Part shown: positions 13,617 to 26,974 of the stretch, piece after piece
How positions within the stretch are numbered: position 1 is the first letter of the stretch
How the letters are laid out: every line of letters begins with the position of its first letter
Assembly (NCBI RefSeq): GCF_907163125.1
Contig: NZ_OU015319.1
Location: 2,170,001-2,234,000 of the forward strand
Source: Cloacibacterium caeni
Lineage (GTDB): Bacteria; Bacteroidota; Bacteroidia; Flavobacteriales; Weeksellaceae
Length of the DNA stretch: 64,000 nucleotides
Direction of reading: 5' to 3'
The notes under the pieces: model-generated
Told to the model about the DNA's origin: nothing
What the model saw: only the letters and a program-made list of their open reading frames with translations
The model's database searches: none
Translations under genes and position numbers: made by a program

Positions 13617-13644
13617 AAAATCCTCAGAAATTTCTGAGGATTTT
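13617..13644 (+). terminator. Terminator of the rpsT-tRNA-Glu unit
   Basis: Perfect 14-bp inverted repeat centred between 13630 and 13631 (core TCCTCAGAAATTTCTGAGGA), followed by T8. Confidence 0.9.
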
Positions 13645-13663
13645 TTTTGTTTTAAAAATTTCA

Positions 13664-13676: not shown

Positions 13677-14096
13677 ATGAAAATTCTAATATTAAACGGA
13701 GCCAATCTCAATCTTCTAGGAACTCGTGAGCCAGACATCTATGGAAATACTTCTATGGATGATGTTTTAACGCATTTAAAATCTGAGTATTCTCAACACG
13801 CTATTGAATATTACCAGTCTAATTTTGAAGGGGAAATCATCGGAAAAATTCAAGAAAATGATTTTGATGCGCTTATCATTAATCCTGGCGCTTTCACCCA
13901 TTATTCTTACGCCATCGCAGATGCGCTTAAAAACCTTAGAAAACCCAAAATAGAGGTTCACATTAGCAATATCTATCAAAGGGAAGAATTCAGGCAGAAA
14001 TCAGTTACCGCAGCTTATACAGATGCTGTTCTCTCCGGTTTTGGCACAGAAGGCTACAGATTAGCGATTATTCATTTAATTTCTACCATACAATAA
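13677..14096 (+). CDS. aroQ: Type II 3-dehydroquinate dehydratase
   Basis: 139-aa dodecameric shikimate-pathway enzyme removing water from 3-dehydroquinate. Features: ILNGANLNLLGTREPDIYG with the catalytic Tyr, INPGAFTHYSYAIADAL, and the catalytic His region VEVHISNIYQREEFR. Normal length. Its terminator, shared with convergent pckA, has been split by the IS at 14115. Confidence 0.96.
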   Translation: MKILILNGANLNLLGTREPDIYGNTSMDDVLTHLKSEYSQHAIEYYQSNFEGEIIGKIQENDFDALIINPGAFTHYSYAIADALKNLRKPKIEVHISNIYQREEFRQKSVTAAYTDAVLSGFGTEGYRLAIIHLISTIQ

Positions 14097-14142
14097 AAAA
14101 ATCCTCAGCGTAAATAGACTGCACCCAAAAGTTTAGACAAAA

Positions 14143-14931
14143 TTAAACAATATTTTCAAAGGAAAGAGTTCGGTACTGTACCGGACTCTTTCCTTTGAGA
14201 TTGAGTCTTATTCTATCATTGTTGTAATAGTGAATGTACTTCACTATTTCCATCTTAAGTTCCTGAATGGAACCAAACTTTCTGGCATAAAACATTTCTG
14301 ATTTTATCGTTCCAAAAAAGTTTTCTATCACCGCATTGTCCAAACAGTTTCCTTTTCGGGACATACTTTGAATAATACCTTTTTCTTTTAACAAGTTTTG
14401 GTAATGTTTCATTTGATATTGCCAACCTTGATCAGAATGTAGAATGATGTTTTGTGTAGATTTTACTTTTCTGAATGATTTCTTTAGCATTCTGATGATT
14501 TGGCTAAACACAGGTCTTTCAGATAAGTCAAAACTGACAATTTCACCATTAAATAAATCGATGATTGGAGATAGATAAAGTTTATTACCCGATACATTAA
14601 ACTCTGTAACATCGGTTGCCCATTTCTGATTAGGAGTGTCCGATTTGAAATTCCTCTGTAGAACATTGGGCGCAATTTTCCCTTGCTCTCCCTTGTAAGA
14701 TTTATATTTCTTCACTCGGATAATACTCTTTAAACCTAATATTTTCATAAGTCGTAAAACAGTTTTGTGATTAATCAAAATTCCTTTTTCTTTCAAAAGC
14801 AAAGTAATTCTTCTATAGCCCAACCTTCCTTTGTGACGATGATAAATCTGCTTAATCATTTCTTTTATTTCCGCATATTTATCTTTCATTTGAAAGCGTT
14901 TTTGATAGTAATAAAAACTGCTTCTTGCCAT
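14143..14931 (-). CDS. IS3-family transposase OrfB (DDE catalytic subunit), copy 1
   Basis: 262 aa from the ATG at 14931; the frame stays open upstream and encodes EELRQDFDLAVLLHCTS, so the functional product is more likely an OrfAB fusion made by -1 frameshifting. An HTH_21-like segment (HRHKGRLGYRRITLLL) precedes the rve domain. DDE residues lie in QKWATDVTEF, LHSDQGWQYQ and NAVIENFFGTIKSEM. Intact. Confidence 0.93.
   Translation of the reverse strand: MARSSFYYYQKRFQMKDKYAEIKEMIKQIYHRHKGRLGYRRITLLLKEKGILINHKTVLRLMKILGLKSIIRVKKYKSYKGEQGKIAPNVLQRNFKSDTPNQKWATDVTEFNVSGNKLYLSPIIDLFNGEIVSFDLSERPVFSQIIRMLKKSFRKVKSTQNIILHSDQGWQYQMKHYQNLLKEKGIIQSMSRKGNCLDNAVIENFFGTIKSEMFYARKFGSIQELKMEIVKYIHYYNNDRIRLNLKGKSPVQYRTLSFENIV
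14157..14197. repeat. 41-bp near-perfect palindrome in the 3' end of orfB, copy 1
   Basis: Outer 13-bp arms (14157-14169/14185-14197) and inner CGGTAC/GTACCG (14171-14176/14178-14183) with a single T at the tip. It overlaps the last codons of orfB. There is no T-run on either side, so it is not a simple terminator. Confidence 0.75.
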
Positions 14932-14972
14932 CGATGTACAATGCAGTAGTACTGCTAAATCAAAGTCCTGCC

Positions 14973-15497
14973 TTAACTCTTCGATGGCTTTGGATTTTTC
15001 CTTTCCTGAATTAAGGCGTCTAACTTTTTTAAAATGGCGTTCTCGGCTTCTAAATAATAAATCCTCTCCAACAGTTCTTCCTCCCTTGTTAAGGGTTTGC
15101 CTGTTTTCTTTTTTTTTCGCGTGTAATTACTCATGGTTTTAGGTCTTCCTCTGGGTATGTTTTCTAAACCTAAAATACCATTTTTTTTGTAATTACGCTG
15201 CCAACTAAGAATACTGGACTCCGCAGGAATATTAAACCTTCTCGACGCTTCTTTTAAACTTAAATTCTCTTTCTCAATTACTGATAAAATCTTTAATTTA
15301 AAATCTTTTGTGTAATGCGTATTGGAAAGCCGAACAAGTCCTGAAACTCCATAAAGTTCATAAAATTTTATCCATTTACGAACCAAGGAACCACAAACTC
15401 CAATGCGTTTTCCTAAATCGTCTGTTCCAATATCCCCTTTGTGATATCTCTTTATAGCTTTTAATTTAAAGTCTAATGAATATTTACTTTTCCCCAT
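14973..15497 (-). CDS. IS3-family transposase OrfA (DNA binding), copy 1
   Basis: 174 aa from the ATG at 15497 (MGKSKYSLDFKLKAI). An upstream in-frame Met at 15542 lies outside the IS and is not the start. Two helix-turn-helix units (~10-55 and ~65-110) are followed by a basic stretch (TRKKKKTGKP) and a leucine-zipper-like helix (EELLERIYYLEAENAILKKL). A canonical slippery heptamer A_AAA_AAG, in frame at 15030-15024 (minus strand), lies 51 nt before the stop codon and opens the OrfB frame. Confidence 0.92.
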   Translation of the reverse strand: MGKSKYSLDFKLKAIKRYHKGDIGTDDLGKRIGVCGSLVRKWIKFYELYGVSGLVRLSNTHYTKDFKLKILSVIEKENLSLKEASRRFNIPAESSILSWQRNYKKNGILGLENIPRGRPKTMSNYTRKKKKTGKPLTREEELLERIYYLEAENAILKKLDALIQERKNPKPSKS

Positions 15498-15579
15498 AAA
15501 AAATGCCCCTAAAAAGTGTCTAACTTTTTGGGGGCAGTCCATAAACTGAGGATTTTATATTTAGGTATTTCTCTTATTT

Positions 15580-17184
15580 TTATAATTGAGGACCTGCCGC
15601 AACTAATCTTTTACCTTCTTCTGTATCACAATATTGTTCAAAGTTTTTAATATATCTAGCTCCCAAATCTCTAGCTTTTGCTTCCCATTCGCTAGCATCA
15701 GCATACGTGTTTCTTGGATCTAGAATTCCTTCAGTTACATTTGGTAAAGAAGTAGGAATTTCTAAATTCATAATTGGAACTACAGTTTTAGGTGCAGATT
15801 CTATAGAACCATCTATAATTGCATCGATAATTGCTCTAGTATCTTTAAGAGAAATTCTCTTACCAGTACCATTCCAACCTGTATTTACTAAATAAGCTTT
15901 AGCTCCGTGTTCTTTCATTTTACCAATTAATGTTTTAGAATACATTGTTGGGTGTAAAGTAAGGAAAGCTTCACCGAAAGCTGGAGAGAATGAAGGTTCT
16001 GGAGAAGTAATTCCTCTCTCTGTTCCTGCTAATTTAGATGTATAACCGCATAAGAAGTGATATTGCGCTTGATCTTCATTTAAAATTGATACTGGAGGCA
16101 ATACTCCGAATGCATCTGCTGATAAATAAACGATTTTTTTAGCGTGACCAGCTTTAGAAGGAAGTACAATTTTATTAATATGATAGATTGGGTAAGAAAC
16201 TCTAGTGTTTTCTGTAATAGAATTATCTTTATAGTCTATTTCGCCATATTCATTTACCACTACGTTTTCTAATAAAGCATCTCTCTTAATCGCTCTGAAA
16301 ATGTCTGGTTCTTTTTCTTCAGTAAGGTCAATTACTTTTGCGTAGCAACCACCTTCGTAATTAAATACACCATTGTCATCCCAACCGTGTTCGTCATCAC
16401 CAATTAAATATCTTTTTGGGTCTGCAGAAAGTGTAGTTTTACCTGTACCAGAAAGTCCGAAGAATAATGCTACATCACCTTCTTCTCCTACGTTTGCAGA
16501 GCAGTGCATAGAAGCCATTCCTCTTAATGGAAGATAGTAGTTCATCATGGCAAACATCCCTTTCTTCATCTCACCTCCATACCAAGTTCCTCCGATAATT
16601 TGGATTCTTTCTGTAAGGTTAAACATTACAAAGTTTTCAGAATTTAATCCTTGAGCTTGCCAATCTGGGTTCACTGTTTTAGATCCATTCATTACAATAA
16701 AATCTGGAGTTCCGAAGTTTTCTAACTCATATAATGATGGTCTAATAAACATATTTGTTACAAAATGAGCTTGCCATGCAACTTCCATTACAAATCTCAC
16801 TTTAAGTCTTGTATCTGGATTAGTACCACAGAATGCATCTACTACATATAATTTTTTAGAAGAAGAAAGCTGTTCTAAAACTAATTCTTTACAAGATTTA
16901 AAAATCTCTGGAGTTGTAGGGAAATTAACTTTTCCGTCCCAGCAAATAGTATCTTTTGTTACATCATCTTTTACGATATATCTATCTTTAGGTGATCTAC
17001 CTGTGAAAATACCCGTTTTTACAGCAACTGCGCCTGATTCTGTAAGAGCTCCCTTTTCAAAACCTTTATTTTTATCAGACATTTCTGCTTTAAAAAGTTC
17101 TTCATAGGTTGGGTTATACACTACTTCGTGATAACCTGTAATACCTAGATCATGTAGCTCTTGAATGATTTTAATGTTTTTCAT
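15580..17184 (-). CDS. pckA: Phosphoenolpyruvate carboxykinase (ATP)
   Basis: 534 aa, the family length. It decarboxylates oxaloacetate to PEP for gluconeogenesis. Visible: [15 protein letters not shown] near the N-terminus, the kinase-1a P-loop [14 protein letters not shown], kinase-2 [11 protein letters not shown] with metal-binding Asp, and [17 protein letters not shown]. It is transcribed toward the IS; its terminator is split. Two candidate -7 elements lie at 17225-17241. Confidence 0.97.
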
Positions 17185-25500: not shown

Positions 25501-25546
25501 AAAAAAACCACTAGATTTTAGACTGCACCCAAAAGTTTAGACAAAA

Positions 25547-26335
25547 TTAAACAATATTTTCAAAGGAAAGAGTTCGGTACTGTACCGGACTCTTTCCTTT
25601 GAGATTGAGTCTTATTCTATCATTGTTGTAATAGTGAATGTACTTCACTATTTCCATCTTAAGTTCCTGAATGGAACCAAACTTTCTGGCATAAAACATT
25701 TCTGATTTTATCGTTCCAAAAAAGTTTTCTATCACCGCATTGTCCAAACAGTTTCCTTTTCGGGACATACTTTGAATAATACCTTTTTCTTTTAACAAGT
25801 TTTGGTAATGTTTCATTTGATATTGCCAACCTTGATCAGAATGTAGAATGATGTTTTGTGTAGATTTTACTTTTCTGAATGATTTCTTTAGCATTCTGAT
25901 GATTTGGCTAAACACAGGTCTTTCAGATAAGTCAAAACTGACAATTTCACCATTAAATAAATCGATGATTGGAGATAGATAAAGTTTATTACCCGATACA
26001 TTAAACTCTGTAACATCGGTTGCCCATTTCTGATTAGGAGTGTCCGATTTGAAATTCCTCTGTAGAACATTGGGCGCAATTTTCCCTTGCTCTCCCTTGT
26101 AAGATTTATATTTCTTCACTCGGATAATACTCTTTAAACCTAATATTTTCATAAGTCGTAAAACAGTTTTGTGATTAATCAAAATTCCTTTTTCTTTCAA
26201 AAGCAAAGTAATTCTTCTATAGCCCAACCTTCCTTTGTGACGATGATAAATCTGCTTAATCATTTCTTTTATTTCCGCATATTTATCTTTCATTTGAAAG
26301 CGTTTTTGATAGTAATAAAAACTGCTTCTTGCCAT
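25547..26335 (-). CDS. IS3-family transposase OrfB, copy 2
   Basis: 262 aa with a protein sequence identical to copy 1. The DDE triad is intact (TDVTEF, LHSDQGW, VIENFFGTIK). It is probably made as an OrfAB fusion. Confidence 0.93.
   Translation of the reverse strand: MARSSFYYYQKRFQMKDKYAEIKEMIKQIYHRHKGRLGYRRITLLLKEKGILINHKTVLRLMKILGLKSIIRVKKYKSYKGEQGKIAPNVLQRNFKSDTPNQKWATDVTEFNVSGNKLYLSPIIDLFNGEIVSFDLSERPVFSQIIRMLKKSFRKVKSTQNIILHSDQGWQYQMKHYQNLLKEKGIIQSMSRKGNCLDNAVIENFFGTIKSEMFYARKFGSIQELKMEIVKYIHYYNNDRIRLNLKGKSPVQYRTLSFENIV
25561..25601. repeat. 41-bp palindrome in the 3' end of orfB, copy 2
   Basis: Same near-perfect palindrome as at 14157-14197, displaced by 11404 bp. Confidence 0.75.
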
Positions 26336-26376
26336 CGATGTACAATGCAGTAGTACTGCTAAATCAAAGTCCTGCC

Positions 26377-26901
26377 TTAACTCTTCGATGGCTTTGGATT
26401 TTTCCTTTCCTGAATTAAGGCGTCTAACTTTTTTAAAATGGCGTTCTCGGCTTCTAAATAATAAATCCTCTCCAACAGTTCTTCCTCCCTTGTTAAGGGT
26501 TTGCCTGTTTTCTTTTTTTTTCGCGTGTAATTACTCATGGTTTTAGGTCTTCCTCTGGGTATGTTTTCTAAACCTAAAATACCATTTTTTTTGTAATTAC
26601 GCTGCCAACTAAGAATACTGGACTCCGCAGGAATATTAAACCTTCTCGACGCTTCTTTTAAACTTAAATTCTCTTTCTCAATTACTGATAAAATCTTTAA
26701 TTTAAAATCTTTTGTGTAATGCGTATTGGAAAGCCGAACAAGTCCTGAAACTCCATAAAGTTCATAAAATTTTATCCATTTACGAACCAAGGAACCACAA
26801 ACTCCAATGCGTTTTCCTAAATCGTCTGTTCCAATATCCCCTTTGTGATATCTCTTTATAGCTTTTAATTTAAAGTCTAATGAATATTTACTTTTCCCCA
26901 T
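26377..26901 (-). CDS. IS3-family transposase OrfA, copy 2
   Basis: 174 aa from the ATG at 26901, identical to copy 1, with the A_AAA_AAG slippery heptamer at 26434-26428 on the minus strand. Confidence 0.92.
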   Translation of the reverse strand: MGKSKYSLDFKLKAIKRYHKGDIGTDDLGKRIGVCGSLVRKWIKFYELYGVSGLVRLSNTHYTKDFKLKILSVIEKENLSLKEASRRFNIPAESSILSWQRNYKKNGILGLENIPRGRPKTMSNYTRKKKKTGKPLTREEELLERIYYLEAENAILKKLDALIQERKNPKPSKS

Positions 26902-26974
26902 AAAAAATGCCCCTAAAAAGTGTCTAACTTTTTGGGGGCAGTCCAATTCTCTAGTGGTTTTTTTTATTTATTAA

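Follow-up and report, generated by a model that had tools for sequence, protein, structure and literature searches.

The window, a stretch of 64,000 nucleotides from Cloacibacterium caeni (contig NZ_OU015319.1, positions 2,170,001 to 2,234,000), holds an insertion sequence (IS) between the convergent genes aroQ and pckA, where it interrupts a predicted terminator hairpin, and a further copy of the same element at a second hairpin of this kind (Table 1). The genome (G000; 2.98 Mb, one contig) carries 27 copies, 26 of them full-length and one interrupted by another IS.

Table 1. Features of the aroQ-pckA locus and of the two IS copies in the window (positions are those of the window).
Feature	Position	Strand	Remarks
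aroQ	13677..14096	+	TIGR01088; reads into the terminator
Left (5') terminator arm AAAATCCTCAG	14098..14108	+	read directly; intact in the G003 empty site
Loop remnant CGTAAA	14109..14114	+	ends in TAAA, the target duplication
Left TAAA duplication copy	14111-14114		
IS copy 1	14115..15541	-	1427 bp; boundaries as in the 26 full-length copies of G000
IS copy 1 ends			TAGACTGC... and ...GCAGTCCA; transposase on the minus strand
orfB, DDE integrase part of the transposase	14143..14931	-	PF00665 (1.2e-23), PF13276 HTH_21, NF033516
orfA, two helix-turn-helix stretches	14973..15497	-	PF13518 HTH_28, PF01527 HTH_Tnp_1
A9G run in the orfA/orfB overlap	15108..15117	-	read from the sequence
IS-borne terminator-like hairpin	15498..15536	-	inverted-repeat end and inner copy, then T6, just before the orfA ATG
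Right TAAA duplication copy	15542..15545	+	
Right (3') terminator arm CTGAGGATTTT	15546..15556	+	read directly
pckA	15580..17184	-	TIGR00224; convergent neighbour
IS copy 2 (L012)	25519..26945	-	within another terminator loop, ...AACCACTAGA / TCTAGTGGTT...

Judged by its coding sequences, the element is an IS150-type member of the IS3 family. Profile matches give a helix-turn-helix orfA and an orfB with a DDE core, the latter matching the IS3 family transposase model NF033516 at 5e-97 (325 bits, cutoff 160); the target duplication is 3-4 bp long, and orfB clusters with IS150 in the tree described below. The orfB frame stays open further upstream of the part listed, and orfB is presumed to be joined to orfA by a frameshift for which the A9G run would be the slippage site. 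The start of orfA was taken to be the ATG at 15497, in a frame open to 15542. The inverted-repeat ends are TAGACTGCACCC / TGGACTGCCCCC, and in the 26 full-length copies one terminus is TG (TGGACTGCC) and the other TA (TAGACTGCA). Ends of the IS3 family are given as 5'-TG...CA-3', with TA ends reported too for IS1447, an element first annotated as belonging to the IS150 subgroup and for which the accessible part of that paper makes no mention of palindromic targets (PMC6211511).

The first-pass annotation of the window placed copy 1 in a terminator loop, with 11-bp arms immediately outside the two IS ends. The arm positions hold, except that 6 nt of loop on the left and 4 nt on the right separate them from the element. 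Deleting the IS together with one TAAA yields AAAATCCTCAG-CGTAAA-CTGAGGATTTT, just as had been claimed. The annotation had also named the orthologous empty site as a check, and the congener G003, in which the IS was not found, carries on the 3' side of aroQ the sequence AATAAAAAAATCCTCAGCGTAAACTGAGGATTTC (L102), whose stem and loop agree with the prediction letter for letter. This was the only readable empty site in a comparison of seven genomes: in G002 and G005 the reading fell on the other side of aroQ, the loci being turned, and the aroQ-pckA layout is absent from G001 and G004. Among 20000 random positions, 0.05% have a hairpin of equal or better score with its centre no more than 2 nt away. 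Upstream of aroQ, at 13617-13648 and about 450 bp from the occupied terminator, the stem AAAATCCTCAG / CTGAGGATTTT recurs in a second, unoccupied one. Copy 2 does sit in another terminator hairpin, as had been stated, but it lacks an exact 3-bp duplication (TTT/ATT).

The same location rule governs the other copies. Sites were rebuilt by joining the flanks after removal of one duplication copy, and a hairpin was called at a score of at least 11. In G000, 25 of the 27 rebuilt sites are hairpins of the A-run/GC-stem/T-run type with the IS at the dyad, many of them with different stems; the corresponding counts are 12/13 in G006, from the same genus, 7/7 in G032, from another genus of the family, and 6/6 for the loci fetched from Chryseobacterium sp. 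FF12. The check on other copies that the annotation had asked for thus places 50 of 53 in hairpins across four genomes. Counting L113, L114 and L116 as well brings this to 52 of 56 sites, the misses being L008, L023, L064 and L116, a shortened copy (1394 bp) that was scored as a miss. A strict criterion (hairpin score 12 with three GC pairs and four consecutive A or T) is passed by 23/27 sites in G000, by 15/20 in G006 and G032 together (with the end of L032 corrected) and by 7/9 in FF12 plus L113, L114 and L116. Although 6 nt were allowed, the dyad never lies more than 2 nt from the centre of the duplication in the 50 hairpin sites of these four genomes. An exact duplication of 3 or 4 bp is present in 22/27 copies of G000, 10/13 of G006, 7/7 of G032 and 6/6 of FF12. 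Five of the 27 G000 copies have no exact duplication of at least 3 bp; at L006, L012, L019 and L022, which are hairpin sites, the two 3-bp copies are mismatched at one or two bases, in each case by an A/T change.

The two non-hairpin sites of G000 are L008 and L023. A terminator-like left arm is present at L008, with neither a matching right arm nor a duplication, perhaps as a result of deletion or of recombination between copies. L023 and, in G006, L064 lie inside open reading frames (gene contexts being simple ORF calls, not annotation) and bear an A-run/CC block on one side only, AAAAAACCC at L023 and a weaker AAACC at L064. The IS is 98-99% identical between G000 and G032, two genera of the family, which probably reflects a recent transfer between genera.

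Such agreement is far above background. In a null sample of 20 random 20-kb stretches, the strict criterion was satisfied at 14 of 20000 random positions, at 284 of 34293 intergenic positions and at 122 of 3178 positions in convergent intergenic regions of up to 250 bp. The other multi-copy IS of G000, used as a control, gave no hairpin at any of nine sites, even under the best of ten junction definitions. These comparisons, set against 50 of 53 copies in hairpins, bear out the earlier proposal that terminator hairpins are chosen as targets rather than hit by chance. The control element, of about 1.4 kb with ends CCCAAATCACGC / GGAATTTGGGTT, breaks IS copy L027 at G000:C1:2688430-2689810 and occurs in eight more places; its flanks are mostly TTTAA-like, AT-rich sites, and it is not a hairpin targeter.

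Not every terminator is used equally. A 400-kb sample contains 77 intergenic terminator-like hairpins, from which about 570 per genome are extrapolated. The 5' arms of targets favour (T/C)CC directly after the A-run, and CC within the first four arm bases is found in 39/52 targets against 28/76 background terminators (p 3e-5). The suggested preference for palindromes is therefore upheld, though not for any hairpin, since the arms are biased to an A-run followed by (T/C)CC. Likewise, the setting between convergent genes is common (36/53 sites against 32/77 background terminators) but not required. At non-convergent sites the IS runs along the gene in nine cases and against it in eight, or seven and seven once three non-hairpin sites are subtracted. 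Terminators of the AATCCCGA...TCGGGATT class are heavily occupied in two genomes, 5/10 in G000 and 7/12 in G006, with five left empty in each; the five congeners lacking the IS contain 7 to 11 of them. This class dominates the targets of G006; among the 25 hairpin sites of G000 one class (TCCCGA) is over-used; and none of the 13 copies of G032 and FF12 lies in a terminator of the AATCCCGA class.

Individual terminators have also been hit repeatedly. Seven of the 13 G006 copies lie in terminators orthologous to occupied ones of G000, aroQ-pckA included, and in six of these seven the IS is reversed. If 570 terminators were equally available, 0.6 shared sites would be expected; the approximate probability of the overlap is 3e-7 for 570 terminators and 3e-5 for 300. 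The flanks are about 95% identical between the two genomes (82.6-98.3%) and the IS 99%, which makes it most likely that the element began to spread once the species had split and struck the same terminators anew. Inheritance from a common ancestor, as the main explanation of the shared sites, is ruled out by this identity gap and by the six reversals; the single pair in the same orientation (L006/L063) could be an old insertion.

The habit extends well beyond this element. A scan with orfB gave 79 loci from the best 80 of 140 candidates, in taxa that include Flavobacterium, Bacteroidales, Clostridia, Bacillaceae, Ruminobacter and Actinobacillus, and relatives with both flanks and findable ends were judged. 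Those ending in T(A/G)..(C/G)TG.(C)CCC measure about 1.4-1.7 kb, and among them hairpin sites were found for L113, L114, L120, L124, L133, L136, L138, L139 and L140 (L138 and L139 have identical flanks and are not independent), as well as for L143, L144, L231, L232 and L234; in other phyla the terminators have very different arms. L117 and L129 have recognisable ends, with neither a duplication nor a hairpin. No hairpin was seen at six shorter elements (L233, L235, L236, L245, L247, L251), which measure 1.27-1.37 kb, end differently and are flanked by duplications of 3-4 bp. For some relatives the inverted-repeat search set the ends wrongly or out of place; L114, mis-ended in one scan, was correctly ended in another. 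Where only a single flank was left at a contig end, a run of at least five T starts 5-20 nt outside the IS in 22/35 cases against 3.5% of random positions, and an A-run at that place in 0/35; these flanks come mostly from Bacteroidales MAGs, 6/41 loci without a recognised end having been excluded. Whole-genome searches in Actinobacillus and Paenibacillus returned one full-length copy each, so the habit rests on single sites there. In Actinobacillus genomosp. 2, solitary IS-end hairpins occur at L217 and L218, where a transposase match is absent.

In an orfB tree of 45 rows, a single branch (support 100/99) splits 16 rows labelled as terminator-targeting, four of which are copies of this same IS, from eight labelled as non-targeting; the remaining 21 are unlabelled. 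The targeting relatives come from three phyla. L120, L133 and L140, which scored low in the inverted-repeat end scan and show hairpins in folds, were labelled as targeting by hand, and L237 and L242 were labelled as non-targeting without a duplication. L130, L141 and L145 (doubtful ends, no hairpin) were kept unlabelled, as were L117 and L129, which fall on the targeting side; L144, L141 and L142 were left out of the tree because too little of orfB was covered. The branch to L232/L234 is long, and the tree program warns of possible wrong joining. The annotation had attributed the targeting habit to this IS, and that much stands; the habit is not confined to it, being seen in many IS150-type relatives.

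The element also brings a hairpin of its own. Read inward, its orfA-side end is TGCCCCCAAAAAGTTAGACACTTTTTAGGGGCATTTTTT followed by ATG, and the outer 80 nt fold at -17.5 kcal/mol. A hairpin lies at the same place in 10/10 relatives examined (-21 to -35 kcal/mol for 85 nt), with a run of at least four T close behind it in nine (not in L136) and an ATG in nine (not in L143). Such a structure may halt transcription from outside ahead of orfA, shielding the transposase genes, and may at the same time replace the broken terminator on that side. Transcripts entering at the orfA-side end should still stop, given its terminator-like form. At the opposite end there is a long, near-perfect hairpin within the 3' end of orfB (14157-14198) with a T-run on neither side, and a gene adjoining that end may therefore lose its terminator. 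Both the target hairpins and the hairpin of the IS are treated here as predicted terminators of transcription in the cell.

E. coli IS150, whose orfB is 57% identical by tblastn, falls on the terminator-targeting side of the tree, where InsK of E. coli K-12 is placed with 84/87 at the nearest fork. Fourteen chromosomal copies were sampled, among 40 matches listed of 3429 records. Eleven lie at type I toxin-antitoxin loci, next to the hok-type toxin gene, several of them sharing the hokA or hokB locus and so not being independent; the other three lie in rbsR, between cysH and cas3 (L287) and at a place with no annotated neighbour within 300 bp. At seven of the eleven hok-side copies and at L287, both arms of a hairpin flank IS150 with a 3-bp duplication (flanks kept apart), and we read this hairpin as the putative terminator of the antisense RNA. 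At the hok-side copies L279, L281, L286 and L289 a duplication is absent and the two arms are not both seen. Whereas the present IS inserts at the dyad, the E. coli copies of IS150 sampled here adjoin one arm, and the arm score, which was tuned to dyad insertions, is below 5 for 13 of the 14 copies. Both orientations occur at hokA among L279-L291. IS150 enters genes as well, as at rbsR in one strain, and an insertion in dgt is described from the long-term evolution experiment in the text accessible to us (PMC11708052).

Taken together, we consider it probable that the IS150-type transposase picks the palindromes of intrinsic terminators by binding symmetric half-sites in duplex DNA and inserts at their dyad. 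Most likely, two transposase subunits would bind the two arms of a linear duplex as symmetric half-sites, each consisting of an A-run and then (T/C)CC at roughly 10 bp from the centre; insertion would follow at the dyad with a stagger of 3-4 bp. The stagger at the dyad, the lack of orientation bias, the biased arms and the one-sided sites in open reading frames all point to symmetric recognition of duplex rather than of a cruciform or of RNA; a symmetric target would also account for either orientation of the IS. The half-site itself is suggested by base counts and by the two exceptional sites. The helix-turn-helix stretches of orfA are candidates for target binding, and a comparison by eye of the IS end with the target half-site gave no match of the same polarity. 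A similar role for a helix-turn-helix was suggested for ISPsy8, in the part of the paper open to us (PMC1525189).

Other explanations differ in what the transposase is supposed to perceive. It might read an extruded cruciform or a single-stranded hairpin regardless of sequence, which would suit stems that vary by copy and by phylum yet are nearly always complementary, would explain the unlike arms in other phyla more simply than half-sites do, and has a parallel in IS1272, which by the available account targets hairpins with little conservation of primary sequence (PMC4923244). We regard this as unlikely, because a 3-bp staggered duplication would need closely spaced loop strands that an extruded cruciform should not offer, because the arms are biased to an A-run plus (T/C)CC, and because the two non-hairpin sites bear a one-sided A-run/CC block. 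Somewhat less likely still is a transposition complex recruited by RNA polymerase during its pause at terminators, or by terminator RNA. Terminator-like targets in several phyla with unlike stems, and the T-run as their shared mark (22/35 flanks), speak for it; the even split of orientations where terminators are one-directional (9 against 8), the insertion point at the dyad of a DNA palindrome and the sequence bias of the arms speak against it. That transcription sets the orientation is ruled out by the same 9 against 8 and by the opposite orientations at orthologous sites.

The pattern might instead have been produced after insertion, if elements landed at random and only the harmless cases between convergent genes survived. 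The excess of convergent sites (36/53 against 32/77 background terminators) fits, and some selection may act too. As the sole cause, however, survival is excluded by the null and by the control IS: hairpins passing the strict criterion are found at only 122/3178 convergent intergenic positions, yet 50/53 copies occupy hairpins, and do so to within 2 nt of the dyad, while the control IS gives 0/9. L023 and L064, inside open reading frames, argue against it as well, and we judge it highly improbable. The suggestion that the arms belong to the element and travel with it deserves almost no credence: the arms do flank each copy, but nothing more favours it, they vary among copies, and the empty site of G003, with both arms and no IS copy found in that genome, refutes it.

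The proposed recognition of terminators by symmetric half-sites in duplex DNA can be set against several known systems. Group IIC introns insert next to terminator stem-loops and are RNA-based retroelements without a DDE transposase. A profile search of the two ORFs of this IS found no match to a reverse transcriptase model, and IS3-family transposase models match. IS1397 and ISKpn1 belong to the IS150 group. These IS3-family elements insert in REP palindromes, a choice that the accessible portion of the paper attributes to the transposase (PMC1525189). They differ from the present IS in using one repeated host REP sequence, whereas the targets here have many different terminator stems and are not copies of a single palindrome. 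Among the matches listed from the plasmid collection, ISKpn8 scored best (59% orfB identity). One plasmid record with an ISKpn8 transposase, NZ_AP025649.1, is a 'plasmid' of 1452 bp, a length which suggests that an IS circle was deposited as a plasmid.

The closest functional parallel is IS1272/TnSha1 of the IS1182 family. According to the accessible text, it targets hairpins, several of them confirmed terminators, can hit the same hairpin repeatedly and in both orientations, and makes a blunt cut in the stem that deletes part of the hairpin and leaves no target duplication (PMC4923244). Our IS shares the hairpin or terminator targets, the repeated hits and the two orientations. It differs in its transposase family, in inserting at the loop dyad with a 3-4 bp duplication and in that nothing is deleted relative to the G003 empty site; the stem cut with deletion and without duplication was not observed. 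A large survey found the IS3 family over-represented between convergent genes and, in its accessible part, does not tie this to terminator targeting (PMC9208149). The open-access literature, so far as its accessible texts extend, yielded no description of IS150-type elements that target terminator dyads. An IS that targets terminators is thus already known in IS1272, and dyad targeting by an IS150-type element is a new variant.

More broadly, we put forward, tentatively and with slightly more doubt than belief, that an IS150-type branch spanning at least three phyla consists largely of terminator-dyad specialists that carry a replacement terminator in their own end, that each lineage has half-sites tuned to a terminator class of its hosts and is able to fill about half of it, and that the taste of IS150 for hok/sok loci is one outcome of this. 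The case shows a route by which an element can reach 27 copies while mostly sparing genes, namely by aiming at an intergenic signal and bringing a likely substitute for it, and this signal sits between genes in most bacteria. Given so precise a dyad rule, symmetric half-sites and many variants in nature, the way in which DDE transposases recognise their targets can be tested directly, and an integrase confined to terminators would be a useful safe-harbour tool.
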